From: a virus
Length of the DNA: 28,793 bases
IMG/VR virus record: IMGVR_UViG_3300032093_011498
Span: 1-28,793 of that record
Reading direction: 5' to 3' (one strand)
In this document: piece after piece, positions 162-28,793 of the stretch
Layout of the letters: each line of letters starts with the position of its first letter
Position numbering within the stretch: the first letter of the stretch is position 1
The notes under the pieces: generated by a model
What the model was told of the DNA's origin: nothing
Databases searched by the model: none
The model's input: only the letters and a program-made list of their open reading frames with translations
Translations under genes and position numbers: made by a program

Positions 162-947
162 TCAATGAGATTCGCCATCTATAATATTATTATACATGAT
201 TTCTTTAACTGTGTCAACTCTTTCTTTGGAGTTTTTAGCTCCTAATATTACTATGGCATGTTTACGATTGTTTTGTTCTACCATAATTGCTACACAATAT
301 CCAGCAGGATTAGTAAATCCTGTTTTACTGACAATCACATTATCAAACTGAAAAAGAACTCGTCTATTGGTATTGTTTAATACAATTTTTCTGACTTTCT
401 TTTTATATTTTGTTTCAATCAATGTGTGTTTTTTTACACTTATATTTTTTATCATATTATAGTTTGAAGCCTCTATAACCATATTCGCCACTTCATTTGC
501 GGTACTAACATTATTACGACTTAATCCTGAAGGATCATCAAATTTAGTATTCGGCATGTTTAACATCATTGCACGTATATTCATATCTCTTATAAACTTT
601 TCTCGACCACCAGGATAGTCTGATGCTAATGTTTCTGCCGCTGCGTTATCACTACGAATTAGCATAGCTTCAAACAATTCACCTCTAGTATAACTCTTGG
701 GTGGCAAACTAGATTTTACTTTTCTGACCAATTTCAATTGTCTTTTCATATCTGTGTTATAGTCTAAAGCAACCATAGCTGTCATAAGTTTCGTAACACT
801 CGCAATTGGTCTAGTATTATCAACATTCTCTCCAATTTTAGTTTTTTTCTCAGAAATATCAAAGTGAATTACTGAAGGATCTTCTCGCTTCGCATGAGAA
901 AAGGTACAAATGGTCAATGCAATTATTGTTATTATTGTTCTAAGCAT
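162..947 (-). CDS. D-alanyl-D-alanine carboxypeptidase/endopeptidase (peptidase S11)
   Basis: Penicillin-binding-protein type serine peptidase, expected to cut D-Ala-D-Ala or peptide cross-links of peptidoglycan in the periplasm. All three active-site motifs are present in order: SVTK at residues 50-53 (catalytic Ser50, Lys53), SDN at 99-101 and KTG at 208-210. A signal peptide covers about residues 1-19 (MLRTIITIIALTICTFSHA). The 261 residues fit a catalytic domain without the C-terminal anchor domain, as in PBP7/PbpG. It overlaps the end of gene 59 by 8 nt. Such enzymes are unusual in phages; it could remodel the wall or aid lysis next to the SleB-like hydrolase at 2665. Family certain, role inferred. 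Confidence 0.92.
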   Translation of the reverse strand: MLRTIITIIALTICTFSHAKREDPSVIHFDISEKKTKIGENVDNTRPIASVTKLMTAMVALDYNTDMKRQLKLVRKVKSSLPPKSYTRGELFEAMLIRSDNAAAETLASDYPGGREKFIRDMNIRAMMLNMPNTKFDDPSGLSRNNVSTANEVANMVIEASNYNMIKNISVKKHTLIETKYKKKVRKIVLNNTNRRVLFQFDNVIVSKTGFTNPAGYCVAIMVEQNNRKHAIVILGAKNSKERVDTVKEIMYNNIIDGESH

Positions 948-1539
948 TTAATATTTTCCTTAATATTATCTTATTTTTTGTTTGATCTTTATTCAAGAAA
1001 TCATTGTATTTCAAAACTTTCATTCTGTAAGATGGCCATATAATAGTATCTTCTATTTTTTCTTTCCACATAGGAAAAAAGTTTAATATAGAATTTAAAG
1101 TGCAGAGAGTTTCTATCTCAATCTCTTTTCTCATACACGATGTGAGTAATTTAGGATGAGAACCTTCATCAACTAATAACAAATCATTAGGATTTTCAAT
1201 ATTAGAAAATAATTTGACACAATCATTCTCGAAAACATATGAGAACGACTGTATCACCTTTTTTCTTTTCATATGCTGTATATCAGCATCATCATTTAAC
1301 AAATCTCCAATCCAAAGTTTTTCATTGTTGACTAGATTAGAAACAATAAAAAAGACTAGGTCATCTTTTAAATTAAACTTTTTTGAAAGTTTAGTAAAGT
1401 GCCATTTGTCTTTTCTATTTTCAAAAGAACTCAAACTAACATTTGTTTTGCCATTATATTTAAAGTAATCATATGACTCCTGAGTAAAATGTAGTTTGAG
1501 AGCATTATATATTCCAAAAGCCTCATAACCAGTTATCAT
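940..1539 (-). CDS. 59: Loader of replicative helicase (gp59-like)
   Basis: Homologue of T4 gp59, which loads the gp41 helicase onto gp32-coated forked DNA during replication and recombination. The 199 residues (T4 gp59 has 217) share the T4 pattern along the N-terminal half: YFKYN near 25-29, RKDKWHFTKLSKKF at 42-55, and FFIVSNLV...WIGDL at 63-80. The C-terminal half keeps the aromatic/basic composition but is less similar. It overlaps upstream gene 33 by 4 nt; the gene 33-59 order is the same as in T4, which strongly supports both calls. Confidence 0.9.
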   Translation of the reverse strand: MITGYEAFGIYNALKLHFTQESYDYFKYNGKTNVSLSSFENRKDKWHFTKLSKKFNLKDDLVFFIVSNLVNNEKLWIGDLLNDDADIQHMKRKKVIQSFSYVFENDCVKLFSNIENPNDLLLVDEGSHPKLLTSCMRKEIEIETLCTLNSILNFFPMWKEKIEDTIIWPSYRMKVLKYNDFLNKDQTKNKIILRKILNA

Positions 1540-2664: not shown

Positions 2665-3228
2665 TTAAGCGTTCCATTTCGTTTTGTTGTAAAAAATATG
2701 TCTACCAATGTAAGCTGTTCTTTTCATGTTAGGCCATCCAGGTGAAACATAATCCGCATGGTAAAAAAGAGCTCCTTTAGTTGGGTCTTTCATTTTATCG
2801 TGATTCAAATAAAAGTTTAAAGACAATTCAACAATCTCATTATACAATGAATTGTTACGTGTTGTCAAGCCCTGATTCTTTAAAATCGCCAATGGTTTGT
2901 CCTCACAATACCATGAAAACTGGCAAACAACATACCTATCAAATTGTGTTTTCTGTTTCACTACTTCACAATATGAATTAGGAAAACGTCCACTTTTCAT
3001 TCTGTTCAAAGTGACAAATGCTACTGCAATTTGTCCCTCAGTGGGCTCTCTAGCGGATTCGAAATAAATGTTTTGCGCTAAACACTCAACTTCTTTTCTG
3101 GCATCTTTACTTAAATCACTAAGTTTGACATCCAACTTAGTGGGTATTGGTATTTGCGAAAAAGCAAATGCAAAGAAACTTAAAAATATAGCAAATAAAA
3201 TACTAGTTAATACGGTTAAAAAACGCAT
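2665..3228 (-). CDS. Cell wall hydrolase, SleB/CwlJ family
   Basis: Probable peptidoglycan hydrolase (Hydrolase_2/SleB fold). A signal peptide or anchor covers about residues 1-24. The catalytic domain starts near residue 46 with CLAQNIYFESAREP (the conserved Glu of the YFE motif) and GQIAVAFVTLNRM, then the CQFSWYCED block near 102-110 and LFYHADYVSPGW near 144-155; these match the family order. In phages it probably acts in lysis or wall remodelling from the periplasm. A good AAGGAG ribosome site precedes the ATG. Family assignment is firm; lysis role inferred. Confidence 0.9.
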   Translation of the reverse strand: MRFLTVLTSILFAIFLSFFAFAFSQIPIPTKLDVKLSDLSKDARKEVECLAQNIYFESAREPTEGQIAVAFVTLNRMKSGRFPNSYCEVVKQKTQFDRYVVCQFSWYCEDKPLAILKNQGLTTRNNSLYNEIVELSLNFYLNHDKMKDPTKGALFYHADYVSPGWPNMKRTAYIGRHIFYNKTKWNA

Positions 3229-3248
3229 ATTTTCTCCTTGTTAGTTAG

Positions 3249-3835: not shown

Positions 3836-3876
3836 AAAAAAATATGCAAGGTGATTGGGTGATAAGGACACCTTGC
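3836..3876 (-). terminator. Intrinsic terminator at the end of the tmRNA
   Basis: On the minus strand GCAAGGTG (3876-3869) pairs with CACCTTGC (3853-3846), followed by ATA and seven T. This is a typical Rho-independent terminator placed just after the tmRNA coding piece and before pqqA. Part of the hairpin may also belong to the tmRNA fold. Confidence 0.75.
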
Positions 3877-4012
3877 GAAACCTCATCTAGCATGTTTAAG
3901 CTGCTAGAGCGTAACTTTCATCGTTTGCAGTTACTATTTTTGCTTGATTTACAGTCATCGCCTACTGTGTTGCCTTCTCCGCTATCTCACCCTGTCGAAA
4001 CCGGTCGAGCCC
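3846..4012 (-). ncRNA. ssrA: tmRNA, coding (5') piece of a two-piece permuted tmRNA
   Basis: Starts at 4012 with the acceptor strand GGGCTCG followed by ACCGGTTTCGACAGGG, the most conserved tmRNA 5' sequence. The proteolysis tag is read from 3928: Ala-Asn-Asp-Glu-Ser-Tyr-Ala-Leu-Ala-Ala then TAA at 3898-3896, preceded by the usual AAAAATAGTAACT region; an ACT codon before it may be the resume codon. CTAGCA and TGCTAG around the stop codon form helix P5. The acceptor strand pairs over 7 bp with the 3' strand CGGGTCC of the piece at 4123, including the G3-U pair that specifies alanine charging. The pieces are in reversed order in the gene, the sign of a permuted tmRNA processed into two RNAs. 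Confidence 0.92.
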
Positions 4013-4122
4013 ATCAGAAGAACTTTCTTCAATAAATTCGTGGAACCACCGCCAATATAGACTATGATTCCACAAATTTAAAGGAGGAAATCTATCGTTC
4101 CATTGATCCATAAAAATCCTTT

Positions 4123-4190
4123 TGGTGGACCCGGGGGGAATCGAACCCCCGTCCAAGATGCCTTCACCTTGAAGGGATTACAACAATTCT
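4123..4190 (-). ncRNA. ssrA: tmRNA, acceptor (3') piece of the permuted tmRNA
   Basis: Encodes the T arm GGGGG-TTCGATT-CCCCC, the acceptor strand CGGGTCC, discriminator A and CCA (4125-4123). It has no tRNA 5' half upstream, so it is not an ordinary tRNA. GGCATCTT before the T arm can pair with GAGATAGC of the coding piece (one bulged A) and CCCTTC with GAAGG, giving helix P2 between the two pieces. The intervening segment that must be cut out is 4013-4122 (110 nt) and holds no supported gene. The 5' limit of this piece (about 4190) is an estimate. Confidence 0.88.
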
Positions 4191-4227
4191 GTACATCATA
4201 TCATAATATATATGACTTGTCAAGCTT

Positions 4228-4563
4228 TTATCGGCCGTAAGGTCTTATTTGTTGACCAATACCAATTATACATAAGATGTTTTCTGTATGTTTCTCTACC
4301 AATGACCAGGTGCCTGTATTTGGATTAACAAACATGATCGTTGGATAAGAATTAACACTTTCACCATTTTCATCATTTGTTCTTCGATGTGAGATCATAT
4401 GCATCATTGGTTTTTCACCATATTCATCTAATGAAGAATATACTACTTCAGCCCTCACACAAACCATTTTGCTTTGTAACAAAGTGAAGTCTTGTTCCTC
4501 ACTTGTATCGTTACCAACTGCCAGAACTGGAAATAGTAGCAATGGTAGAAGAATCTTTTTCAT
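4228..4563 (-). CDS. Exported hypothetical protein
   Basis: 111 residues starting MKKILLPLLLFPVLAVGND, a clear signal peptide. The start at 4563 is chosen because the longer reading frame would lose the signal peptide; this start lies inside the end of the exonuclease gene (52-nt overlap). The mature part has paired features LLQSKMVCVRAEVVYSS and TMFVNPNTG-like blocks but no motif I recognise. Probably periplasmic. Similar short exported proteins exist in marine T4-like phages; function unknown. Confidence 0.65.
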   Translation of the reverse strand: MKKILLPLLLFPVLAVGNDTSEEQDFTLLQSKMVCVRAEVVYSSLDEYGEKPMMHMISHRRTNDENGESVNSYPTIMFVNPNTGTWSLVEKHTENILCIIGIGQQIRPYGR

Positions 4564-5230
4564 TTGTCCAATACCTTTCAATATAAGATTGGAGTTCTTC
4601 CATGTATTTAGACTTTTCTCTGATGAAAATCTGAGGTGTACCTTCTTCATTAGCTATTGCCACCACGATTTGTTCTATAGGTATATTGGTTCTTTCTTCG
4701 AACATAACAGCATAAGCCGTACATTGCACAAAATAATTCTGTATCCATTCTTCTTTCTTTTCTTTTCTGGAATTCTTATAATCTATTATTGATACTTTAT
4801 TATTCCAAGAAGCCACACAATCGGTTCTTCCAGCTAACTTCAAGACATCACTATACAGAGGTAATTCTAAACCAAAAACATCTCCAATGTTTCGATCTAT
4901 ATGCGGTCTTAATTGCATGAAGAAATCCTTTATATCAGGCATCATCATGCGAATTTTAAAATCGCTTAGTTCATTTAGTAAATACTTCTCACAAACTTCG
5001 TGTAATTTAGTGCCTCTATCTGATGACTTTTTAGTTATTTTGTTGGCTTCTTTCTCACCAATTCTTTGACGCCATTCTTCTAAGTGTGTTTTATCTGTAG
5101 AATGAGATAAAACGGTGGTAATTGAAGGGTAGAAATTACCTCCTGGTGTTTTATATACTCTACCCTTCTCTGTAGTTGTGGATTCTAATTCATAATCTAA
5201 TCCATCTATTTTCACATGATTGAAATTCAT
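4511..5230 (-). CDS. PD-(D/E)XK exonuclease (RecB/Cas4-like)
   Basis: 239 residues with the motifs of the RecB-type nuclease fold in order: GTKLHE (73-78), acidic residue before the central strand (LELPLY near 121), AGRTD (133-137), the core IIDYKNS (148-154, Asp150 and Lys152) and QCTAYA (169-174). Such phage enzymes are related to the mitochondrial exonuclease MGME1 and degrade or process DNA ends during replication or recombination. It starts 6 nt after the 5237-5407 gene. Fold confident, exact role inferred. Confidence 0.85.
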   Translation of the reverse strand: MNFNHVKIDGLDYELESTTTEKGRVYKTPGGNFYPSITTVLSHSTDKTHLEEWRQRIGEKEANKITKKSSDRGTKLHEVCEKYLLNELSDFKIRMMMPDIKDFFMQLRPHIDRNIGDVFGLELPLYSDVLKLAGRTDCVASWNNKVSIIDYKNSRKEKKEEWIQNYFVQCTAYAVMFEERTNIPIEQIVVAIANEEGTPQIFIREKSKYMEELQSYIERYWTNEKDSSTIATISSSGSW

Positions 5231-12166: not shown

Positions 12167-12730
12167 TTAAAAAACATTGTCTGCTATGCCAAGTTCTAAA
12201 AGTTCCTCTGTCGTAAACCAAACATCACTTGGCGGAATAAGTTTAGTCTTAATTGTACGAGTGTCTAGTCCTGTACAACTCTTTAACAGAGATAACATTC
12301 TTTGATTTACTAAATCATTTTCTTTTGCAGCTGATTTTAGATCGTGATATTTTCCATCAAACCCGTTTGAGAATTGATGGCACATAACAGATGAAGATTT
12401 ACTAATATACCTCTCACCTTTATGTCCTGCTGCAAAAATTAAAAATGCTGATGAACAAACTGATCCTAGGCCGACCGTCTTTATTTTTTTCTTAGACTTT
12501 TTCATAATTTCAATTAGTGCAAAAGCATCCTCTAAACTTCCACCATTTGAATTTATATAAAGTATTAAGTCGTTATTTCCTGGTATTAAATTTTCGTACA
12601 TGATCCATTTGATCGTTTCTAATGTATTGTGTTCGTCAATATTACCATTTAAAAAATGTACATGATTCTTTAATAAGACTAAACCAATCTCATCTGAAGT
12701 AGTTGAAAAGTCAAGATTTTTTTCTGCCAT
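12167..12730 (-). CDS. clpP: ClpP-type serine protease
   Basis: 187 residues of the ClpP peptidase fold. Substrate-binding strand INSNGGSLEDA (59-69); nucleophile in GSVCSS, where Ser93 lines up with the ClpP catalytic Ser; His118 in CHQFSNG; and an Asp in PSDVWF (Asp169). The nucleophile context differs from the cellular AASM. It has no ATPase domain and would need a host ClpX/ClpA, or act as a small separate peptidase (T4-like cyanophages also carry clpP-like genes). It overlaps the galE-like gene by 20 nt. The same genome encodes a tmRNA whose tag ends LAA, the signal read by ClpXP. Confidence 0.88.
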   Translation of the reverse strand: MAEKNLDFSTTSDEIGLVLLKNHVHFLNGNIDEHNTLETIKWIMYENLIPGNNDLILYINSNGGSLEDAFALIEIMKKSKKKIKTVGLGSVCSSAFLIFAAGHKGERYISKSSSVMCHQFSNGFDGKYHDLKSAAKENDLVNQRMLSLLKSCTGLDTRTIKTKLIPPSDVWFTTEELLELGIADNVF

Positions 12731-21365: not shown

Positions 21366-21453
21366 TGGTGCCTCGAGCCGGAATCGAACCGGCACGCCCT
21401 CGCGAGCGGCAGATTTTAAGTCTGCTGTGTATACCTGTTTCACCACCGAGGCA
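21366..21453 (-). tRNA. tRNA-Leu (UAA)
   Basis: 88 nt with encoded CCA. Acceptor TGCCTCG/CGAGGCA, T arm GCCGG-TTCGATT-CCGGC, long variable arm typical of leucine, anticodon TAA in the loop CTTAAAA. Discriminator A. Lies between the ahpC leader and the YkuK-like gene. Confidence 0.95.
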
Positions 21454-21459
21454 TTAAAA

Positions 21460-21930
21460 CTAAGCTGCTCTTAAACTTTTGAATCTGTCAGCAGCGTATG
21501 ATGCCGCAAATGCATTTGGTTTAATTAAAGGTATTACATTACAAGTACCACGAATATAACCAATTGCTTCTTGCATCACACAGTTACTTCCGTGATGTTC
21601 ATCAGGATTAATATCTAAATGAACTTCAACATGTCTATCTTCAAGCACATCCGCAAGTTTAATGTAAAGTTCGGATACTTTATAAACTTCATTCATCAAA
21701 CGATATCTAGGACGATTTTTCTTTTGATCGTAATCTCTTTCTCTCTGAACTTCACCAAAAAGTTTGCATCCGTTGTTTCCATTTATATGGACTACCACAG
21801 CAAGAATGTAATCGGCGTACCAGACACCATCAACTTTAAATCGCTCAGAATCACAACCAATATAAATTTTGGTTTCGGGTGATTGATTGTTGATGTAATC
21901 TTTTACTTTATTTAAATCAAGTTTACGCAC
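21460..21930 (-). CDS. YkuK/DUF458-type RNase H-fold protein
   Basis: 156 residues with an RNase H-like core: YIGCDSERF (Asp27) on strand one, DYILAVVVHINGN, then VHLDINPDEHHGSN (conserved acidic and His residues) and the final Ala-rich helix (AASYAADRFKS). This matches the YkuK family. Start is GTG at 21930 with AAGGAG before it; the nearby ATG leads to an early stop. Its enzymatic activity is unproven. It sits between two tRNA genes. Confidence 0.8.
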   Translation of the reverse strand: MRKLDLNKVKDYINNQSPETKIYIGCDSERFKVDGVWYADYILAVVVHINGNNGCKLFGEVQRERDYDQKKNRPRYRLMNEVYKVSELYIKLADVLEDRHVEVHLDINPDEHHGSNCVMQEAIGYIRGTCNVIPLIKPNAFAASYAADRFKSLRAA

Positions 21931-21950
21931 GACACATTCTCCTTATTGTT

Positions 21951-22042
21951 TGGTGCCTCCGGCGGGAGTCGAACCCACATTGGCCAATTATCTGTTGCAC
22001 ACGGGATATAAATCCGCTGTTTTACCGTTAAACTACAGAGGC
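21951..22042 (-). tRNA. Atypical tRNA with long variable arm, anticodon probably UAU
   Basis: 92 nt with CCA. Acceptor GCCTCTG/CGGAGGC (7 bp with one G-U), D arm GTTT/AAAC, T arm GTGGG-TTCGACT-CCCGC, discriminator A. The best anticodon stem is GCGGA/CCCGT (last pair A-C) around TTTATAT, which puts UAU (Ile) at the anticodon. Yet the variable region is about 22 nt, a class II feature not seen in isoleucine tRNAs. Identity therefore uncertain. Confidence 0.7.
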
Positions 22043-22050
22043 GTTTTATA

Positions 22051-22079
22051 ATTATACAGCATCTACATTTCTTTTGCAA
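22051..22079 (-). promoter_or_regulatory. Sigma70-like promoter for the tRNA at 21951
   Basis: TTGCAA (22079-22074), 17-nt spacer, TATAAT (22056-22051), about 9 nt before the tRNA 5' end. It would also transcribe the YkuK-like gene and tRNA-Leu. Confidence 0.7.
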
Positions 22080-22107
22080 GATTTTTTAATTACTTTAACC
22101 GACATAA

Positions 22108-22115
22108 TATAAATA
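22108..22115 (+). promoter_or_regulatory. T4-type late promoter for the radical SAM gene
   Basis: TATAAATA, the exact late-promoter box, ends 5 nt before the ATG at 22121. Initiation would be at or next to the ATG, so the mRNA seems leaderless; no ribosome site is visible. Confidence 0.6.
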
Positions 22116-22120
22116 ACGCA

Positions 22121-23605
22121 ATGAATCATTGCATATTATTTTCTATAACATCTAACCTAAGAAGTCGTCCAAGCGGTGTTCACCGAATAGCACACCATCT
22201 TCGAACTCAAGGATGGAATGCCGAAGTTATCGACTTTTTCTATGGATGGACTCTTGAAGAACTAAAAGAACTTGTCCGATCAAGAGTAACCAAGAACACC
22301 CGTTTTTTTGGATTTTCATGGTTATTTTTCAGCAACGAAATAAAAAATACCATAAATCCTTTTTGTGAGTGGGTAAAAATTAATTACCCGGATATAATAT
22401 TCATCAGTGGTGGACAGACAGAACAAATTTCAAATGATATTATCCATTATCACATTGCTGGTTACGGAGAATATGCGTTAAACACATTACTATCTTATTT
22501 GTTCAGTAATGGTAAAAAACCTAGATTTTCTTTTCAAACACGAAGTAAAACAAAACTCATAAACGCTATACATAGTTATCCTGCTTTTCCCATGCAAGAT
22601 CCCATGATCAAATATGAATCTCGGGATTTTATTGTACCTGGAGAATGGGGTAGAATAGAATTTAGTAGAGGCTGCAAATTTAGCTGTAAATATTGTAATT
22701 TTCCTGTTTTAGGCGTAAAGGGTGATTACACCCGTACAGCAGAAAGCGCTAGAGAACAATTACTACATGCTTATGATAATTGGGGTATTGAAGATTATCT
22801 AGTTTCTGACGAAACATTTAATGATTATACCGAAAAAATTACAAAGTTTGCTAATGTTGTCGAAACACTTCCTTGGAAACCTTATTTTGCGGGGTTCATT
22901 AGAGGTGATTTATTGGTAAGCAGACCAGCAGACAGACATGAGTTACTTAGAATGGGTTTTTTTTCACACTATTATGGTATTGAAACTTTCAATCAAAAAT
23001 CCGCACAATTTGTTGGTAAAGGTATGAAAGTTGAAAAAATACAATCGGGTTTAATAGATGTAAAAAATTTTTTCAAATCCAATACACCAAAAAATTATTA
23101 TGCTGGATCAATGGCGTTTATTTCTGGACTTCCTTATGAAACACTGGAAAGTTTAGAAAGCACTCATCAGTGGATTCGTAGTAATTGGTTGGATCAAATA
23201 GTTATTGCAAGTCCTTTAGAAATAAACAAAAACTTTACTTTTAGATACTCAGACATTGATGAAAACTTCTCATCTTATGGTTATAGAGAAATGAAAATTA
23301 ATGATATTGAACTCGACATAACAAAAATTAATGACTTTTATGGTAATGGTGGCCACGTAATATGGGAAAATGACAATATGAACTTTATTCAGGCATTAGA
23401 TTGGGCAGAAAAAATTCGTTCCCTTAAAATTATAGCTGGACACGATTATCAACGATTAAGTATGGGTGATATATGTAATATACTTTGTGATGAGAATGGT
23501 GATCCTTTACCGAGGGATAAAAAATTATCCGTCACAAGAGGAAATTCACGCAATCATTGGAATCTTTTCTTAGAAAAGTATAAGAAAAAGAAACTTAGTA
23601 TTTAA
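22121..23605 (+). CDS. Radical SAM protein with B12-binding-like N-terminus
   Basis: 494 residues. N-terminal 1-150 has a Rossmann-like pattern (GVHRIAHHLRTQGWNAEVIDFF, then ISGGQTEQI), like cobalamin-binding domains of class B radical SAM enzymes but without a clear DxHxxG. The radical SAM core follows with Cys185-x3-Cys189-x2-Cys192 (GCKFSCKYCNFP) and a GLPYET motif near 325. The substrate is unknown. It is the only supported plus-strand gene in the window, driven by its own late promoter, and its stop overlaps that of the convergent sulfotransferase. It is unlike PqqE in domain layout. Confidence 0.88.
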   Translation: MNHCILFSITSNLRSRPSGVHRIAHHLRTQGWNAEVIDFFYGWTLEELKELVRSRVTKNTRFFGFSWLFFSNEIKNTINPFCEWVKINYPDIIFISGGQTEQISNDIIHYHIAGYGEYALNTLLSYLFSNGKKPRFSFQTRSKTKLINAIHSYPAFPMQDPMIKYESRDFIVPGEWGRIEFSRGCKFSCKYCNFPVLGVKGDYTRTAESAREQLLHAYDNWGIEDYLVSDETFNDYTEKITKFANVVETLPWKPYFAGFIRGDLLVSRPADRHELLRMGFFSHYYGIETFNQKSAQFVGKGMKVEKIQSGLIDVKNFFKSNTPKNYYAGSMAFISGLPYETLESLESTHQWIRSNWLDQIVIASPLEINKNFTFRYSDIDENFSSYGYREMKINDIELDITKINDFYGNGGHVIWENDNMNFIQALDWAEKIRSLKIIAGHDYQRLSMGDICNILCDENGDPLPRDKKLSVTRGNSRNHWNLFLEKYKKKKLSI

Positions 23606-24270
23606 AATTCATACTTATGTTTTTTTATGATATCAAAATTTGATATCTCAACCATTTTCATTAACTCATCAGTATAATAATCTTTATAATTTTTTTTTGA
23701 TACAGTCACATTCAAAGGCGGTTCTTTAAAGATAGAACTTTCTATTTCGGTCGTTAGTTCACCACATCTATCTAACATATAAATCAATTCTTTTCTTATA
23801 TTTTCTTGTTTACCAATATATGTGGCATATTTCGTAAAAACATTATAATAGTTTTGAAAGACTGAAACCTCATTCGTTAACCATTGATAAGGCATATATT
23901 TGTTCACATCATTAACAGTTTCTTTATTCAACATAACAAATAATCTACTGTAGTTGTACATTTTGTTTTTGAATTCATAAGTAGGATTATTCATCAAATG
24001 AATCCATTCAGAAAAATCTTTATGTGTAATCTTTTCGTATAAAAATCCTTCTGTTCCCATTATATCAGAACCATTTTTATTAAATTCATACTGACTAACA
24101 TACCAGTCCCACGGATTTCTAGTAAAAACAAAAACCTCTTTGTTTTCAGGTTTTGTAAACAATATTCCATGTTTACGTTGATTCAGTGTAAGTGGTTCAA
24201 GAATTTTTTTAATCCAAGTACCTGCTGTTTTTGGTATGTGTAAAAATATAGCGTTTTTTGTTACATACAT
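23602..24270 (-). CDS. Sulfotransferase family protein
   Basis: 222 residues. PAPS-binding 5'-phosphosulfate loop HIPKTAGT (11-18) and 3'-phosphate loop FTRNPWDWYVSQYE (about 49-62), the two hallmarks of the Golgi-type/bacterial sulfotransferase family. It would move sulfate from PAPS to a sugar or lipid acceptor. Its ATG is only 13 nt after the CCA of tRNA-Arg and no ribosome site is seen, so the mRNA may start by tRNA processing. It converges with the radical SAM gene, sharing stop-codon bases. Confidence 0.87.
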   Translation of the reverse strand: MYVTKNAIFLHIPKTAGTWIKKILEPLTLNQRKHGILFTKPENKEVFVFTRNPWDWYVSQYEFNKNGSDIMGTEGFLYEKITHKDFSEWIHLMNNPTYEFKNKMYNYSRLFVMLNKETVNDVNKYMPYQWLTNEVSVFQNYYNVFTKYATYIGKQENIRKELIYMLDRCGELTTEIESSIFKEPPLNVTVSKKNYKDYYTDELMKMVEISNFDIIKKHKYEF

Positions 24271-24283
24271 AAATTTTTATATT

Positions 24284-24358
24284 TGGTCCGGCTGCAGGGA
24301 ATCGAACCCCGATTTAAAGATTAGAAGTCTCTTGTATTATCCGTTATACGACAGCCAG
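24284..24358 (-). tRNA. tRNA-Arg (UCU)
   Basis: 75 nt with CCA. Acceptor CTGGCTG/CAGCCGG, T arm CGGGG-TTCGATT-CCCTG, anticodon loop CTTCTAA gives UCU. Discriminator A. Last tRNA of the long array on the transcript, directly before the sulfotransferase gene. Confidence 0.92.
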
Positions 24359-24362
24359 AAAT

Positions 24363-24438
24363 TGGAGCGGATAGCCAGGCTCGAACTGGCGACATTTTGC
24401 TTGGCAAGCAAACATTCTACCAACTGAATTATATCCGC
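24363..24438 (-). tRNA. tRNA-Gly (GCC)
   Basis: 76 nt with CCA. Acceptor GCGGATA/TATCCGC, discriminator T, anticodon stem TTTGC/GCAAA with loop TTGCCAA giving GCC, T arm GCCAG-TTCGAGC-CTGGC. Confidence 0.95.
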
Positions 24439-24652
24439 ATGAATAAGTGTTAAGCTACTAGTCCTCACTAGCCCTCAACTGAGCTGTTACTCTGTCCATC
24501 ACATTTACTTCTGGTCAAACAAGGCGTGATACCCACCTACGATTTTTCTGGCACCCATGTAATTGAGTTCTGAGGCAGATCGTATGCGCCTTGGCGTTAT
24601 GGTTAAGCCAACAGACCCCCTATCAATAACGGGTAGGGACCCCGAGGTTTTT
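24439..24652 (-). ncRNA. Structured RNA spacer 1 between two tRNA-Gly genes
   Basis: 214 nt, clearly richer in GC than the phage average, without an open frame. Nested helices on the minus strand: CAAGGCG (24593-24587) with CGCCTTG (24526-24520), and inside it TACGAT (24584-24579) with ATCGTA (24543-24538). Near the 3' end a hairpin CTAGT-GAGG-ACTAG. A 19-nt motif at 24479-24497 recurs in spacer 2 with 17 of 19 identical. Likely a functional RNA, but of no class I can name. Confidence 0.55.
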
Positions 24653-24726
24653 TGGAGCGGGATATCAGAATCGAACTGATAACAACAGATTGGAAATCTG
24701 TAGTTTTACCATTAAACTAATCCCGC
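24653..24726 (-). tRNA. tRNA-Gly (UCC)
   Basis: 74 nt with CCA. Acceptor GCGGGAT/ATCCCGC, discriminator T, anticodon loop TTTCCAA gives UCC, T arm ATCAG-TTCGATT-CTGAT. Its first ten bases overlap the end of the small gene at 24717. Confidence 0.95.
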
Positions 24727-24884
24727 TTTGTTTCTTGTTTATCTTCAAAAGCATCCAATACACAATCTTCAGTACTCAATTCATCCTGATATTCATTCTT
24801 AAAAATTTTATCCCAATTATCAGAAAACTTATCTTGTGGAACCGAAAATGGTCTTGGTCTACTTCCTTTGCCGCCGTCATTCAT
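24717..24884 (-). CDS. Small conserved phage protein (GGKGSRPRPF)
   Basis: 55 residues, MNDGGKGSRPRPFSVPQDKF then SDNWDKIFKN and an acidic C-terminus. The GGKGSxPRPFSV block followed by W-x-x-IF is shared by many short phage proteins. AAGGAAG precedes the ATG. Its TAG stop lies inside the acceptor strand of the downstream tRNA-Gly, so maturation of the tRNA would cut the end of its mRNA. Function unknown. Confidence 0.8.
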   Translation of the reverse strand: MNDGGKGSRPRPFSVPQDKFSDNWDKIFKNEYQDELSTEDCVLDAFEDKQETKRD

Positions 24885-24900
24885 TTTACTTCCTTGTTAT

Positions 24901-24974
24901 TGGTGCCCTTTGACAGAATCGAACTGCCAATAGATGATTACAAATCAACTGTTATACCATTTAACTAAAAGGGC
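24901..24974 (-). tRNA. tRNA-Thr (UGU)
   Basis: 74 nt with CCA. Acceptor GCCCTTT/AAAGGGC, anticodon loop TTTGTAA gives UGU, T arm GGCAG-TTCGATT-CTGTC, discriminator A. Confidence 0.93.
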
Positions 24975-24993
24975 TATTATACACTACTTATGC

Positions 24994-25068
24994 TGGTAGT
25001 AGTGGCAAGATTCGAACTTGCACCTAACACCGTATGAAGGTGGCGCACTACCATTATGCTACACTACC
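24994..25068 (-). tRNA. tRNA with CAU anticodon (elongator Met or Ile2)
   Basis: 75 nt with CCA. Acceptor GGTAGTG/CACTACT starting with a G-U pair, D arm GCAT/GTGC, anticodon loop TTCATAC gives CAU, T arm GCAAG-TTCGAAT-CTTGC, discriminator A. A CAU anticodon is read as Met unless modified to lysidine (Ile AUA). The next tRNA is the more initiator-like of the two. Confidence 0.88.
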
Positions 25069-25070
25069 AT

Positions 25071-25148
25071 TGGTTGCGGGTGTGGGATTCGAACCACACG
25101 ATTTCTTGCTTATGAGACAAGCGAGGACGACCTCTCCTCTAACCCGCA
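25071..25148 (-). tRNA. tRNA-Met (CAU), initiator-like
   Basis: 78 nt with CCA. Acceptor TGCGGGT/ACCCGCA, D arm GAGG/CCTC, anticodon stem CTTGT/GCAAG with loop CTCATAA, anticodon CAU. The T arm has one extra base: GTG(T)GG against CCCAC, or an 8-nt loop. This could be a natural bulge or a damaged gene. Confidence 0.82.
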
Positions 25149-25195
25149 ATTGAAAAGGTGGGAGATTTTACTCTCCTCGCCTCACACGCGAAACT

Positions 25196-25279
25196 TGGTG
25201 GGTAGCCACGGAATCGAACCGCGTATGCCGAAGCGCCTGATTTACAGTCAGGTGTAGTCACCAATGCTACTCGCTACCC
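25196..25279 (-). tRNA. tRNA-Tyr (GUA)
   Basis: 84 nt with CCA. Acceptor GGGTAGC/GCTACCC, anticodon loop CTGTAAA gives GUA, long variable arm, T arm CGCGG-TTCGATT-CCGTG, discriminator A. Its 5' end abuts the closing helix of structured spacer 2. Confidence 0.95.
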
Positions 25280-25591
25280 ATATTAGAATTGTAGTCTGCA
25301 CTATTTGCTGTGCTCAACGGAATTACCGGCCGGATGTACCGTTTGTATGCATAGTTACTCAGGCATGATCAAGCCCATGGCTTACAGACTACAAATCTAA
25401 TATTGCTTAGGCCACGTTTTTCCACGGTCGCCCCCAAGCTGAGTTGTTACCCTGTCCGAACACTAATCAGCGGTTTGCTACGTAGTGTCCACGCTGCTAT
25501 GTTGTCTGCTTACGTATGCGCTAACGGTGCCATAGCCACCGAACAATTTTCGTAGTTACACGCTACTTTCAGGAAAGTAGTAACCGGATTC
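25280..25591 (-). ncRNA. Structured RNA spacer 2 between tRNA-Asn and tRNA-Tyr
   Basis: 312 nt without an open frame, richer in GC than the genome. A 19-bp helix (25403-25385 with 25298-25280, 18 of 19 paired) closes an 86-nt domain and ends exactly at the tRNA-Tyr 5' end. A likely H-type pseudoknot upstream: CAGCG (25496-25492) with CGCTG (25472-25468), interleaved with GGACACTA (25490-25483) and TAGTGTTC (25465-25458). The 19-nt motif at 25439-25457 is shared with spacer 1. Likely a functional structured RNA of unknown class. Confidence 0.6.
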
Positions 25592-25670
25592 TGGCTCCGC
25601 ATTTGAGGATCGAACTCAACTAACCAGTGGTTAACAGCCACGCCCATGCACCAAGCTCGGGTTCTGCGGA
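25592..25670 (-). tRNA. tRNA-Asn (GUU)
   Basis: 79 nt with CCA. Acceptor TCCGCAG/ATGCGGA (last pair G-A), anticodon loop CTGTTAA gives GUU, T arm TTGAG-TTCGATC-CTCAA, discriminator G. The D loop is about 2 nt longer than usual. Confidence 0.92.
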
Positions 25671-25677
25671 ATAGATT

Positions 25678-26013
25678 TTAATCTACATTTAACTTTTCTG
25701 CATGTACTTCACGATGACAATTCGCACAAAGCAAAGAACATTTATCTATTTCATTTTTTATTTTTTCCCAGGAATAAGTATTGCCTGTTTTAGAAATACC
25801 GAATTCTTTTTCATTAGGATCAAGGTGATGAAACTCTAATGCCTCAACACACTTGTCATATCCACATTTTTCACATTTACCACCTTTGTATTCTATCGCT
25901 TGTAATTTTAAATTTCTTCTTTTCTTCTTAGTATGAAATTTGTTTTTACATTTTATGCCACAAAATACCGTTTCAGTTTCATTAGTACAAAGATGCCATT
26001 TACATTTATTCAT
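25678..26013 (-). CDS. HNH endonuclease
   Basis: 111 residues. Zinc cysteines CEKCG (47-51), catalytic FHHLDP (62-67) and the second zinc pair with His in LLCANCHREVH (about 93-103): a complete small HNH nuclease, like free-standing homing endonucleases of T4-like phages. A separate N-terminal cysteine pair (CKWHLC, CGIKC) may bind a second zinc. It lies between tRNA-Asn and tRNA-Asp and has its own late promoter, suggesting a later insertion into the array. Confidence 0.88.
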   Translation of the reverse strand: MNKCKWHLCTNETETVFCGIKCKNKFHTKKKRRNLKLQAIEYKGGKCEKCGYDKCVEALEFHHLDPNEKEFGISKTGNTYSWEKIKNEIDKCSLLCANCHREVHAEKLNVD

Positions 26014-26037
26014 AAGATTATCCTTTACAGTTAATCT

Positions 26038-26045
26038 TATTTATA
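26038..26045 (-). promoter_or_regulatory. T4-type late promoter for the HNH gene
   Basis: TATAAATA on the minus strand, 24 nt before the ATG at 26013; AAAGGA ribosome site follows. Exact match to the T4 late box. Confidence 0.65.
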
Positions 26046-26056
26046 AATCTTAAACT

Positions 26057-26133
26057 TGGCGACACTTAGGGAACTCGAATCCCTGACCTCCGCCGTGACA
26101 GGGCGGCGTTCTAACCAACTGAACTAAAGTGCC
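26057..26133 (-). tRNA. tRNA-Asp (GUC)
   Basis: 77 nt with CCA. Acceptor GGCACTT/AAGTGTC, discriminator G (as expected for Asp), anticodon stem CCGCC/GGCGG with loop CTGTCAC giving GUC. Its 5' end directly follows the closing helix of spacer 3. Confidence 0.95.
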
Positions 26134-26235
26134 ATATTGAAACACACTATGCAGAAGTCTCTAATCTCACCCCGACAGGAGTATAACACACGACCTCGGT
26201 GCTCCAGTGTGTCCAGAATATAATGTGCTTCAATA
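26134..26235 (-). ncRNA. Structured RNA spacer 3 between tRNA-Glu and tRNA-Asp
   Basis: 102 nt that fill the gap from the CCA of tRNA-Glu to base 1 of tRNA-Asp. The ends pair: ATATTGAA (26236-26229) with TTCAATAT (26141-26134), continued by CACA with TGTG after one bulge. Inside, ACACAC and GTGTGT are interleaved with GC-rich segments (CACCGAGG and CGGGGTG), suggesting a second pseudoknot. GC-rich, no open frame. Confidence 0.55.
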
Positions 26236-26310
26236 TGGTACACCCAACCGGAATCGAACCGGTGTTACTGCCGTGAAAGGGCAATGTCCTGACCGCTAGA
26301 CGATGGGTGC
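26236..26310 (-). tRNA. tRNA-Glu (UUC)
   Basis: 75 nt with CCA. Acceptor GCACCCA/TGGGTGT, anticodon loop CTTTCAC gives UUC, T arm ACCGG-TTCGATT-CCGGT, discriminator A. First tRNA after the promoter at 26354. Confidence 0.94.
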
Positions 26311-26353
26311 AAAAATTATCAAATTGTTAATGAACTCTTACTCTAGAAAATCT

Positions 26354-26381
26354 ATTATACACTAACCACAGTATTTGTCAA
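26354..26381 (-). promoter_or_regulatory. Sigma70 consensus promoter inside the tRNA array
   Basis: TTGACA (26381-26376), 16-nt spacer, TATAAT (26359-26354). About 44 nt before tRNA-Glu. Preceded 5 nt upstream by the 16-nt hairpin at 26387. Confidence 0.8.
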
Positions 26382-26386
26382 GTGGT

Positions 26387-26402
26387 GTTGTAAAAATACA
26401 AC
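26387..26402 (-). repeat. 16-nt hairpin upstream of a promoter (copy 3)
   Basis: GTTGTA and TACAAC around a 4-nt loop, 5 nt from TTGACA, as at 11827. Followed on its far side by TTATCAA-C-TTGATAA (26405-26419), a near-perfect palindrome. Confidence 0.55.
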
Positions 26403-26422
26403 ATTATCAACTTGATAATAAA

Positions 26423-26500
26423 TGGAGGTAAGGGTGGGATTTGAACCCACGGTTTTACAGTTTTGCAGACTGCTGCTTTGGACCACTCAGCCACCTTACC
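26423..26500 (-). tRNA. tRNA-Cys (GCA)
   Basis: 78 nt with CCA. Acceptor GGTAAGG/CCTTACC, discriminator T (the cysteine identity base), anticodon loop CTGCAAA gives GCA, T arm GTGGG-TTCAAAT-CCCAC. Confidence 0.93.
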
Positions 26501-26501
26501 A

Positions 26502-27119
26502 TTAATCTACAGTGGGACCATTTCCATTTTTAAATCCAATAGTCCCACCTTGTTCTTTAATTTTCTTAATCGCATCCTCAAAAAGAATTGGACGATAATC
26601 GGTGTGTTCAACACAAGCGCACCAATATCTCGGATCAAGAACTTTTTTCTGTGTAGTAAAAGGTCTTTCATCGTAAGGACCCCATTCTTGGACACTAATC
26701 GTTTTCATCACTCTGTTGTAATGAAGATGTCCATGAATATTTGTTCCAAAACGCCCAAGACTTTCTTCATGTACAGGAATATGACTAAGAATCATTCCAT
26801 TCATTACATGGTAACCACGAACATCACGAAAATGTTTAGTGTAATCTTCAAGTTTAAAAATATCGTGGTTGCCTTTAATCAACACTTTATCTCCGTTCAA
26901 CCTTTCAAGGATTTGGAGAGACTTGCGATTGATTACAACATCACCAAGATGGTAAACTTTATCATTAGGTCGAACTGTTTCGTTCCAACGTTTTACCATT
27001 TCTTCATCCATTTCTTCTGGATTATCCCATGGCCTAAGTTTCGTACCATCGTCACGCAGGAATCTACATACGCCAGCATGACCAAAATGTGTATCACTAA
27101 CTAGAAATACTGCTGGCAT
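26502..27119 (-). CDS. Calcineurin-like metallophosphoesterase
   Basis: 205 residues. Metal-binding blocks in order: SDTHFGH (8-14), HLGDV (57-61), KGNHD, LSHIPVH and NIHGHLHYN. This small form is common in phages and bacteria as an uncharacterised phosphodiesterase or phosphatase. Ends one nucleotide before tRNA-Cys, so mRNA and tRNA are on one transcript. It is distinct from the larger enzyme at 16501. Confidence 0.9.
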   Translation of the reverse strand: MPAVFLVSDTHFGHAGVCRFLRDDGTKLRPWDNPEEMDEEMVKRWNETVRPNDKVYHLGDVVINRKSLQILERLNGDKVLIKGNHDIFKLEDYTKHFRDVRGYHVMNGMILSHIPVHEESLGRFGTNIHGHLHYNRVMKTISVQEWGPYDERPFTTQKKVLDPRYWCACVEHTDYRPILFEDAIKKIKEQGGTIGFKNGNGPTVD

Positions 27120-27128
27120 AATGCCCCC

Positions 27129-27377
27129 TTATTCGAATGGAATTTCTTTTGAAGGATTTTCCAAAATACTTTCTACCACAAATACATCAAACAATTGATC
27201 ATCTTCTGGATGTTTTATTTCTTCCAAAAAAGTATGATTAAACTTTGTTCGCCAATGTACAAATACTTGTTTATCAGCATTCCATCGTGCTTCACTTGCA
27301 TTACGACAACTGCCTGCATAATAAGCGCCATGAATTAAATTCTGTTTTGCAATTTTAGCTTCGTATGACTCGTACAT
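27129..27377 (-). CDS. Hypothetical protein
   Basis: 82 residues, MYESYEAKIAKQNLIHGAYY then AGSCRNASEARWNADKQVFV and an acidic C-terminus. ATG at 27377 follows AAAGGAAAAATT; frames further upstream run through tRNA-Ser and are ignored. The leader is nearly identical to that of the 27428-27592 gene. Resembles short unnamed phage proteins with a conserved C-R-N-A-x-x-A-x-W-N stretch. Function unknown. Confidence 0.7.
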   Translation of the reverse strand: MYESYEAKIAKQNLIHGAYYAGSCRNASEARWNADKQVFVHWRTKFNHTFLEEIKHPEDDQLFDVFVVESILENPSKEIPFE

Positions 27378-27392
27378 AATTTTTCCTTTAAA

Positions 27393-27482
27393 TGGCGGTG
27401 AGTATTGGATTCGAACCAATGGAAGGTTTAACCCTTCGACGGTTTAGCAAACCGCTGCCTTAAGCCACTCAGCCAACTCACC
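27393..27482 (-). tRNA. tRNA-Ser (GCU)
   Basis: 90 nt with CCA and the long serine variable arm. Acceptor GGTGAGT/ACTCACC, discriminator G, anticodon loop TTGCTAA gives GCU, T arm ATTGG-TTCGAAT-CCAAT. A short reading frame (27428-27592) runs into it from upstream. Confidence 0.95.
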
Positions 27483-27592
27483 ATTGTATCACAAAAATTA
27501 GCAAACATGAGGCAACTAAACATGAGTAATGCAATTCCAATACCTAATACAAACCAATAAAAAAATATTTGTAGTACTATATTGAGTATCAT
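27428..27592 (-). CDS. Small membrane peptide running into tRNA-Ser
   Basis: 54 residues: about 32 very hydrophobic ones (MILNIVLQIFFYWFVLGIGI, then ALLMFSCLMFANF), then about 18 residues encoded by the tRNA-Ser gene itself (...VSWLSGLRQRFAKPSKG). AAAGGAAAAAAC is a good ribosome site for the ATG at 27592. It is either a real peptide whose stop was lost when the tRNA was inserted, or a chance frame. The membrane span and ribosome site favour a real peptide. Confidence 0.5.
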   Translation of the reverse strand: MILNIVLQIFFYWFVLGIGIALLMFSCLMFANFCDTMVSWLSGLRQRFAKPSKG

Positions 27593-27607
27593 GTTTTTTC
27601 CTTTAAA

Positions 27608-27695
27608 TGGCGGAAGCGGTGAGATTCGAACTCACGGACCTTTTACAGTCGTCGGTTTTCAAGACCGATACCTTAAACCACTCAGACACACTTCC
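27608..27695 (-). tRNA. tRNA-Ser (UGA)
   Basis: 88 nt with CCA, long variable arm. Acceptor GGAAGTG/CGCTTCC region, discriminator G, anticodon loop CTTGAAA gives UGA, T arm GTGAG-TTCGAAT-CTCAC. The 18 bases after its CCA match those after tRNA-Ser (GCU), suggesting duplication of a tRNA-plus-leader unit. Confidence 0.94.
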
Positions 27696-27703
27696 ATAAA
27701 TTT

Positions 27704-27779
27704 TGGCCGGTCCTGAGAGAATCGAACTCCCACCTGCGGGTCCGTAGCCCGCCGTAATCATCCATTTTACTAAAGACCG
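27704..27779 (-). tRNA. tRNA-Arg (ACG)
   Basis: 76 nt with CCA. Acceptor CGGTCTT/AGGACCG, discriminator G, anticodon stem GCGGG/CCCGC with loop CTACGGA giving ACG (inosine-modified to read CGN). Confidence 0.93.
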
Positions 27780-27782
27780 ATA

Positions 27783-27977
27783 TTAAATTGTTTTGTCGAT
27801 GTTACTTCCTTTAGTGACAATATCTATAACACCATTTACATCATACACAGTGGTCGGATAATATCTACGCTCAACGACAACTACATCATTACCGTTTGGA
27901 TAATCATAATTAATTCTTTTTTCTATAGTTCGTAGATTTTCTTGCCATCCCAAATATGTAATAGAATTTATTTGCAT
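27783..27977 (-). CDS. Hypothetical protein
   Basis: 64 residues, MQINSITYLGWQENLRTIEK then RINYDYPNGNDVVVVERRYY and a short acidic/Lys tail. AAGGAGTAATC precedes the ATG. It sits between tRNA-Leu and tRNA-Arg on the same strand. No family recognised; appears to be mainly beta-strands. Confidence 0.65.
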   Translation of the reverse strand: MQINSITYLGWQENLRTIEKRINYDYPNGNDVVVVERRYYPTTVYDVNGVIDIVTKGSNIDKTI

Positions 27978-27990
27978 GATTACTCCTTAA

Positions 27991-28067
27991 TGGTGCCCCA
28001 GAGGAGAGTCGAACTCCTAAAATTTGGCTTCTAAGACCAACACGTATACCAGTTCCGTCACCGGGGC
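27991..28067 (-). tRNA. tRNA with UAG anticodon (Leu), short variable arm
   Basis: 77 nt with CCA. Acceptor GCCCCGG/CTGGGGC, anticodon stem TTGGT/GCCAA with loop CTTAGAA giving UAG (reads CUN, Leu), T arm AGGAG-TTCGACT-CTCCT, discriminator A. The variable region is only 5 nt, whereas the Leu (UAA) tRNA at 21366 has the normal long arm. Confidence 0.88.
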
Positions 28068-28073
28068 AAATTT

Positions 28074-28148
28074 TGGTTCCGGTTGGTGGGAACGATCCAC
28101 CGACCCTCGCCTTATCAAGACGATGCTCTACCACTGAGCTAAACCGGA
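28074..28148 (-). tRNA. tRNA-Ile (GAU)
   Basis: 75 nt with CCA. Acceptor TCCGGTT/AACCGGA, anticodon loop TTGATAA gives GAU, discriminator A. The T loop reads ATCGTTC, unlike the usual TTCGANY. Confidence 0.9.
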
Positions 28149-28150
28149 GT

Positions 28151-28226
28151 TGGTGCAACCTCCAGGAATCGAACCTGATTCAACGGCTCTTCAGGCCGCC
28201 GCTATGACCACATCAGCTAAAGTTGC
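28151..28226 (-). tRNA. tRNA-Phe (GAA)
   Basis: 76 nt with CCA. Acceptor GCAACTT/AGGTTGC, anticodon loop CTGAAGA gives GAA, T arm ATCAG-TTCGATT-CCTGG region, discriminator A. Confidence 0.92.
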
Positions 28227-28227
28227 A

Positions 28228-28301
28228 TGGTGCTCTCAACAAGAATCGAACTTGTAATGCATCCTTACCAAGGATGAGTTATGCCACTTAACTATGAGAG
28301 C
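28228..28301 (-). tRNA. tRNA-Thr (GGU)
   Basis: 74 nt with CCA. Acceptor GCTCTCA/TGAGAGC, anticodon stem CATCC/GGATG with loop TTGGTAA giving GGU, T arm ACAAG-TTCGATT-CTTGT, discriminator A. Confidence 0.94.
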
Positions 28302-28312
28302 TGCATAACATT

Positions 28313-28388
28313 TGGTGGAGGATAGCAGATTCGAACTGCTTACTCATGCTTGCAAAGCACATGTGTTCCCAATTAGCACCAATCCCCC
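28313..28388 (-). tRNA. tRNA-Ala (UGC)
   Basis: 76 nt with CCA. Acceptor GGGGGAT/ATCCTCC with the G3-U70 pair that marks alanine tRNAs, anticodon loop TTTGCAA gives UGC, T arm AGCAG-TTCGAAT-CTGCT, discriminator A. Confidence 0.95.
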
Positions 28389-28389
28389 A

Positions 28390-28554
28390 TTAAACATAAA
28401 ACTTTGTTTGATCCTGTTTCTTTTGATTAATCAAACGATTTCTCTCACACCACGGACAACCACCGTGATGTTCACAACTTTTTGAAACATATTGCGGACG
28501 ACCATCTCTAACTTTTTTTGAAGTTTTTCTTTCTTTACGAAAAGTCCTAGACAT
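28390..28554 (-). CDS. Small basic Cys-containing conserved phage protein
   Basis: 54 residues: MSRTFRKERKTSKKVRDGRP, then a cysteine motif CEHHGGCPWC and a Lys/Gln tail. The order MSRTFR...VRDGRP...C...C.WC...NR is shared with short proteins of many T4-like phages; three Cys plus two His may bind zinc. GGAGA lies 6 nt before the ATG. Its stop is one base from tRNA-Ala. Confidence 0.8.
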   Translation of the reverse strand: MSRTFRKERKTSKKVRDGRPQYVSKSCEHHGGCPWCERNRLINQKKQDQTKFYV

Positions 28555-28570
28555 ATCATTCTCCTAAATT

Positions 28571-28644
28571 TGGTCTCGGTAGAAGGAATCGAACCTCCGC
28601 CGCATGGTCCCAAACCACGCATGATACCATTTCACCATACCGAG
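28571..28644 (-). tRNA. tRNA-Pro (UGG)
   Basis: 74 nt with CCA. Acceptor CTCGGTA/TACCGAG, anticodon loop TTTGGGA gives UGG, T arm GGAGG-TTCGATT-CCTTC, discriminator A. Confidence 0.94.
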
Positions 28645-28649
28645 TTATT

Positions 28650-28724
28650 TGGTGCATCGTGATGGTTTCGAACCACCGACAACTTGCTTGTAAGGCAAGG
28701 ACTCTACCACTGAGCTAACGATGC
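28650..28724 (-). tRNA. tRNA-Val (UAC)
   Basis: 75 nt with CCA. Acceptor GCATCGT/ACGATGC, anticodon stem CTTGC/GCAAG with loop CTTACAA giving UAC, T arm GGTGG-TTCGAAA-CCATC, discriminator A. Confidence 0.95.
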
Positions 28725-28725
28725 A

Positions 28726-28793
28726 TGGGGTAACCTATGAGGATCGAACTCATACTGCCAGGTCCACAATCTGGCGTGCAGACCACTACACTA
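28726..28793 (-). tRNA. tRNA-His (GUG), 5' end cut by window edge
   Basis: 3' 68 nt with CCA and discriminator C (the histidine base). Anticodon stem CCAGA/CCTGG region with loop TTGTGGA gives GUG; T arm ATGAG-TTCGATC-CTCAT. The acceptor 5' strand lies beyond the window, so the array continues to the right. Confidence 0.9.

Follow-up and report, generated by a model that had tools for sequence, protein, structure and literature searches.

The stretch of DNA analysed here, referred to as the window, comprises the 28,793 nucleotides (nt) of IMG/VR virus record IMGVR_UViG_3300032093_011498 and contains a gene for a circularly permuted, two-piece tmRNA. Our reading of the locus, to which we assign a probability of about 0.82, is that a T4-like phage carries its own permuted tmRNA of the beta type and that a small phage protein is encoded in the spacer between the two tmRNA pieces.

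The permuted tmRNA gene and its phage neighborhood

A first inspection of the letters alone had proposed a permuted tmRNA with the tag ANDESYALAA at this minus-strand locus, in which the CCA-bearing acceptor piece precedes the coding piece. ARAGORN agreed, calling a permuted tmRNA (tmRNA*) at 4215-3805 on the minus strand with the same tag. The covariance models concurred as well: over the full length of each model, Rfam beta_tmRNA (RF01850, positions 1-331) matched the window with 150.0 bits (E value of 2 × 10−46) and tmRNA_permuted (RF04321, positions 1-213) with 143.9 bits (E value of 1.1 × 10−28). These scores lie far above the respective cut-offs of 84 and 47, and chance can therefore be excluded for the tmRNA. 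Among the alpha, beta, and cyano tmRNA models, RF01850 was the best match. Both ARAGORN and Rfam placed the acceptor piece, T arm included, ahead of the coding piece.

A sigma-70-like promoter (TTGACA-17-TATGAT with an extended −10 element, 11/12 consensus matches) is predicted at positions 4195 to 4223 on the minus strand, just upstream of the acceptor piece. This tRNA-like 3′ piece (about 4123 to 4185, minus strand), delimited by ARAGORN, Rfam, and the acceptor pairing, comprises the 5′ side of P2, the T arm GGGGG-TTCGATT-CCCCC, the acceptor 3′ strand CGGGTCC, and the discriminator A, and it is closed by an encoded CCA at 4125-4123. The intervening segment (IVS, or spacer) of 110 nt follows at 4013 to 4122, and then the coding, mRNA-like piece at 3846 to 4012, which was identified by ARAGORN and Rfam. 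The coding piece opens with the acceptor 5′ strand GGGCTCG, ACCGGTTTCGACAGGG, and the 3′ side of P2 (GGCAAC), continues with the ARAGORN-called tag reading frame (3896 to 3928, minus strand), which encodes ANDESYALAA with its hydrophobic C terminus and ends in a TAA stop codon, and finishes with a hairpin, GCAAGGTG..CACCTTGC, followed by a T-run. The two ends originally predicted, 4012 and 4123, coincide exactly in the sequence with the start of the coding piece and the end of the CCA, and the T arm, P2 pairing, and tag with stop noted at that time are all intact. The predicted 7-bp acceptor helix was likewise recovered, since GGGCTCG and CGGGTCC form 7/7 pairs between the pieces, G3-U70 included.

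The same complete pairing between the pieces was present in 205 of 207 phage loci, a count in which the coding-side heptamer was picked by pairing and the re-paired control (mean of 5.4/7) was not re-optimised, so that the comparison favours pairing. Across these loci, the acceptor stems vary widely with both sides in step (GGGCCTG/CAGGTCC, GGGGATG/CATCTCC, GGGCCAG/CTGGTCC, and GGGCTAG/CTAGTCC), while G3-U70 and the encoded CCA are kept.

As had been proposed, the tmRNA is phage encoded: it sits among phage genes, and it occupies the same place in related phages. Its neighbors are T4-like phage genes, including a T4 RNase H-type exonuclease. A PD-(D/E)XK exonuclease (PHROG 298; 4511 to 5230, minus strand) is the conserved upstream neighbor of permuted tmRNAs in related phages, and a T4 gp59-like DNA helicase loader (PHROG 269; 940 to 1539, minus strand) lies downstream in the same orientation, an arrangement shared with the Methylophilales phage Melnitz. 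At the protein level, the closest isolates are cyanophages, Pelagibacter phage HTVC008M, and Melnitz, all with less than 50 % identity. A permuted tmRNA was found in all 22 exonuclease relatives from IMG/VR that have at least 63 % identity and a locus extending past the gene (19 called by ARAGORN; L229, L240, and L241 called by Rfam). A megablast search of the first 24 kb of the window against phage records gave no match, and a distant blast search with the tmRNA returned only Pseudomonas Samunavirus-type phages and Xanthomonas phage XacN1, over the T-arm region. The window also contains a ClpP-like serine protease gene (12167-12730), which might be connected with tmRNA-tagged proteins. More than 20 tRNA genes form a minus-strand array at 21366-28793, within which a radical SAM gene lies on the plus strand (22121-23605).

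Open reading frames in the spacers of phage permuted tmRNAs

The original prediction had overlooked an open reading frame (ORF) in the spacer. Using searches blind to the presence of ORFs, we gathered permuted tmRNAs from IMG/VR, grouped their spacers into 101 clusters, and scored as a spacer ORF any frame of at least 19 codons with a Shine-Dalgarno sequence and an ATG near the spacer start. Such ORFs were present in 18/101 phage spacer clusters, compared with a mean of 0.76 and a maximum of 5 in 500 dinucleotide shuffles in which the last 9 nt of the spacer were kept; this clustered count supersedes an unclustered one of 23/131 spacers. The stop codon fell inside the spacer in 14/101 clusters (shuffles: mean of 0.23, maximum of 2), and in 10 of these 14 the ORF stops exactly 1 nt short of the coding piece. 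The reverse complements of the phage spacer clusters yielded no Shine-Dalgarno-ATG ORF, and none was found in the 27 bacterial spacers of at least 30 nt. A directed search revealed further spacer ORFs, which stand outside the count of 18/101.

Sequence comparison within several spacer ORF families points to purifying selection at the codon level. The pN/pS ratio was 0.03 to 0.19 in a family of 24-amino-acid membrane peptides, 0.25, 0.32, and 0.33 in the families of 50, 61, and 41 amino acids, respectively, and 0.09 to 0.65 in the MFENWHW read-through family, whose stop lies in the coding piece as in the window and whose closest pair gave 0.09; the 37-amino-acid ORFs of L367 and L382, a single pair, gave 0.73, and selection is thus not evident in all families. 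When one hand-picked pair per family was pooled, substitutions at codon positions 1, 2, and 3 numbered 69, 51, and 117. Many of the small spacer proteins look membrane spanning by eye.

One recognizable protein was found in the 268-nt spacer of locus L381, which holds a complete 84-amino-acid thioredoxin with a WCGPC motif (PF00085, 75 bits, E value of 4 × 10−21), and around which Rfam still joins the two pieces as one permuted tmRNA (L381:28-539, minus strand). The spacer ORF of L082 encodes a PGDYG-family protein, and further spacer ORFs were without a family match. Collectively, the enrichment of spacer ORFs, the selection acting on several of their families, and the nested thioredoxin indicate that the permuted tmRNA genes of phages frequently have a protein gene nested inside them. 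For two of the nested families, homologues also occur directly upstream of the acceptor piece on the same strand, at 75 to 98 nt from the CCA (L597, L625, L140, L034, and L367 for one family; L132 and L170 for the other), and genes beside the tmRNA therefore appear to enter and leave the spacer.

A search of titles and abstracts in the open-licence literature found no description of ORFs in tmRNA spacers, and a small protein gene in the spacer of a permuted phage tmRNA thus looks new. Permuted tmRNAs are treated as noncoding except for the tag, with the spacer as a discarded segment. If many phages place a protein gene there, one transcript would be both a messenger and the precursor of a ribosome-rescue RNA, which raises testable questions as to whether translation or RNA cutting comes first, and unannotated small phage proteins would be hidden inside RNA genes. 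Nested genes would also suggest why phages keep long spacers and the sampled beta hosts short ones.

The window ORF, the origin of the tmRNA, and its proposed working

The spacer ORF of the window (3962 to 4111, minus strand) encodes 49 amino acids, MDQWNDRFPPLNLWNHSLYWRWFHEFIEESSSDGLDRFRQGEIAEKATQ; it starts in the IVS and runs to a TAG stop that lies within the coding piece, 51 nt from the 5′ end of that piece. The IVS begins with AAAGGATTTTTATG directly after the CCA, and the Shine-Dalgarno sequence AAAGGA lies at 4122-4117 on the minus strand. We first noticed this ORF by looking at the sequence and tested it afterward. It is probably protein coding, with a sole sequence variant known. The alternative, that the tmRNA is real and permuted while the window ORF is a chance open frame and nested genes belong only to other phages, appears unlikely, though several observations agree with it. 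Homologue searches returned only identical copies or matches to the RNA-constrained C-terminal end, so one variant is all there is to compare; in relatives such as L224 to L228, whose exonucleases share 91 % identity with that of the window, the spacer is shorter and unrelated and lacks the ORF; and its stop falls in the coding piece, which places it in a minority class of 4/18 ORF-bearing spacer clusters. Against chance, however, stand the frequency of a Shine-Dalgarno-ATG ORF of this length among dinucleotide shuffles of the window IVS (0.0003) and the codon score, which matches that of the window's own genes in the ORF frame only (0.178 versus 0.181; the two remaining frames score −0.23 and −0.71). 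Moreover, the border CCACCA-AAAGGATTTTTATG is shared with other phages, in which it precedes the conserved MFEEWHW/MFENWHW ORFs. The window ORF had no significant match among phage records; PHROG 26025, tried as a homologue, gave an E value of 0.051 and is not evidence.

The original prediction had further proposed capture from a host with a two-piece tmRNA and a tag of beta/gamma type. The beta part of the latter was borne out by a tag comparison, in which ANDESYALAA was also found on permuted tmRNAs of two sampled betaproteobacterial-order genomes, G195 and G315; in a check of these two genomes for RuMP methylotrophy, HxlA did not exceed the cut-off. This shared tag and the best score of the beta model would fit a direct, recent capture from a betaproteobacterial host, yet we consider that account improbable. 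In a tree built from 156 columns of 102 tmRNAs, with weak support for its deep branches, the window tmRNA falls among phage tmRNAs and beside no sampled bacterium; host sampling is thin. Phage permuted tmRNAs also differ from those of the sampled beta hosts, with a median spacer of 75 nt versus 28 nt and an encoded CCA at 192/207 versus 20/94 loci. Exonuclease and tmRNA, moreover, tell different histories: L225 has 91 % exonuclease identity to the window, but its RNA pieces match at only 37/60 and 90/121 positions, whereas L232, with 74 % exonuclease identity, matches at 51/60 and, in the coding part, 110/119 positions. Alpha-type tmRNAs lie near the exonuclease in L229 (80 % exonuclease identity), L244, and L246; at this site, relatives have either alleles of the alpha type or diverged ones of the beta type. 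These comparisons indicate that tmRNA alleles move independently of the neighboring exonuclease gene, a pattern suggestive of phages exchanging them at a constant genomic position. Because the nearest sampled relatives are phages and alleles are swapped at the site, which the Melnitz locus shares, direct host capture is not established; an ultimate bacterial origin of the window tmRNA is likely. That the gene is a nonfunctional remnant, or an inhibitor of the host tmRNA rather than a working tmRNA, is very improbable. Phages do carry a tRNA-like-only form, such as the TLD-only RNA of mycobacteriophage DS6A (PMC4131195, PMC11915505), but in the window both pieces, the acceptor pairing, P2, G3-U70, the CCA, the tag with its stop, and the promoter are intact, and the gene is conserved across many phages.

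We return to the reading of a working permuted tmRNA of the beta type, carried by a T4-like phage of the cyanophage/Melnitz type. Permuted tmRNAs are generally made as one precursor that is cut by tRNA-processing enzymes into two pairing pieces (PMC11915505). In the window, a single transcript from the promoter at 4223-4195 would be cut to give the 3′ end of the acceptor piece at 4123 and the 5′ end of the coding piece at 4012, and the IVS would be removed on maturation; by analogy with tRNA processing, RNase P would be the enzyme that generates this 5′ end. The acceptor stem and P2 would hold the pieces together by base pairing, and the resulting two-piece tmRNA would be charged with alanine, carried by SmpB, and rescue stalled ribosomes, adding ANDESYALAA to the rescued proteins and directing them to Clp-type proteolysis. 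The same precursor would serve as mRNA for the small phage protein. Processing, aminoacylation, ribosome rescue, and ORF translation are inferred steps. The SmpB would presumably be that of the host, since smpB was not detected in 15 of 16 phage records with a permuted tmRNA, most of which are possibly incomplete; the remaining record has the gene.

In loci whose ORF stops within the spacer, excision would leave the ORF whole; in those whose stop lies beyond the spacer, as in the window, cutting would leave a nonstop message. Spacer gene and tmRNA might even be coupled, such that cutting strips read-through ORFs of their stop and the resulting nonstop messages are rescued and tagged in cis by the tmRNA of their own transcript, though we hold this to be doubtful. 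It is equally doubtful that the level of the small protein would, as such coupling implies, report on or control ribosome rescue in an arfA-like loop in cis.

Several other loci deserve mention. In a 105-kb phage record (L644; G005, IMG/VR 3300047281_000098), positions 290-715 and 2870-3247 hold an SmpB gene (PF01668, 148 bits) and a permuted tmRNA with the tag ANDESYALAA, about 2.2 kb apart, a phage-borne tmRNA together with its protein partner. Unusually long tags of 22 to 33 amino acids, e.g., ANADTFDFSAMSFTGNTVRGAANESRFALAA, occur on many permuted tmRNAs of phages and recur across contigs (L352, L368, L374, L376, L411, L443, and others). On one contig of the Pseudomonas indica NBRC 103045 assembly (L291/G019), a beta-type permuted tmRNA with the tag ANDERFAVAA lies about 24 kb from a standard tmRNA (ANDDNYEGYALAA). 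The permuted tmRNA of a beta-order bacterial genome (L477, G268) has an odd 28-amino-acid tag, GNQPSNLQVMQQFDVPTPANGDQYLNVA, and is perhaps of mobile-element origin. Finally, the permuted ARAGORN calls at L263, L331, and L343 (two of them from Cupriavidus) span about 500 nt and have aberrant tags, probably through a miscalled tag frame.

Comparison with known two-piece and phage tmRNAs

The view that phage tmRNAs are known but few, held in the original prediction, is outdated: 402 phages with a tmRNA had been counted by 2021, and two-piece forms made up 53 of the 133 unique structures among phage tmRNAs (PMC9004378), while a 2025 database lists 79 unique phage tmRNAs (PMC11915505). A phage-encoded permuted tmRNA as such is thus already described and not new. 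The closest described case is Melnitz, a phage with a two-piece tmRNA (Buchholz et al. 2022, PMC9004378). Melnitz, too, is T4-like (Kyanoviridae), and its permuted tmRNA occupies the position seen in the window, with the common gene order of PD-(D/E)XK nuclease, small ORF(s), tmRNA, and helicase loader. However, the Melnitz tmRNA is of the alpha type, with the tag ANDNYVPVDYALAA and an adjoining glutamine riboswitch, whereas that of the window is of the beta type with ANDESYALAA. The Melnitz spacer also has a Shine-Dalgarno-ATG ORF, of 54 codons, which is unannotated in its record. Permuted tmRNAs are themselves unannotated in the records of Xanthomonas phage XacN1 (L496, 2978-3398), where a GOLLD RNA follows about 1 kb farther downstream, and of the Samunavirus Pseudomonas phage FBPa45 (L497, 2976-3396).

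The betaproteobacterial permuted tmRNA (RF01850; merged model RF04321, PMC11915505) resembles that of the window in piece order, acceptor pairing, P2, T arm, and tag type. It differs in the spacer, which measures 110 nt and holds a small ORF in the window but 5 to 42 nt, with no Shine-Dalgarno-ATG ORF, in the sampled beta hosts. The tmRNAs of Bxz1-like mycobacteriophages and Bacillus phage G are phage carried like that of the window, but they are one-piece RNAs of standard gene order and not permuted. Both are listed among the tmRNA-carrying phages (PMC4131195). The nearest parallel to a protein ORF inside an interrupted tmRNA gene is the tmRNA that bears a group I intron with a homing endonuclease ORF (PMC11915505); in that gene, a self-splicing intron within the T-loop region harbors the ORF, whereas the ORF of the window lies between the permuted pieces, with no intron.
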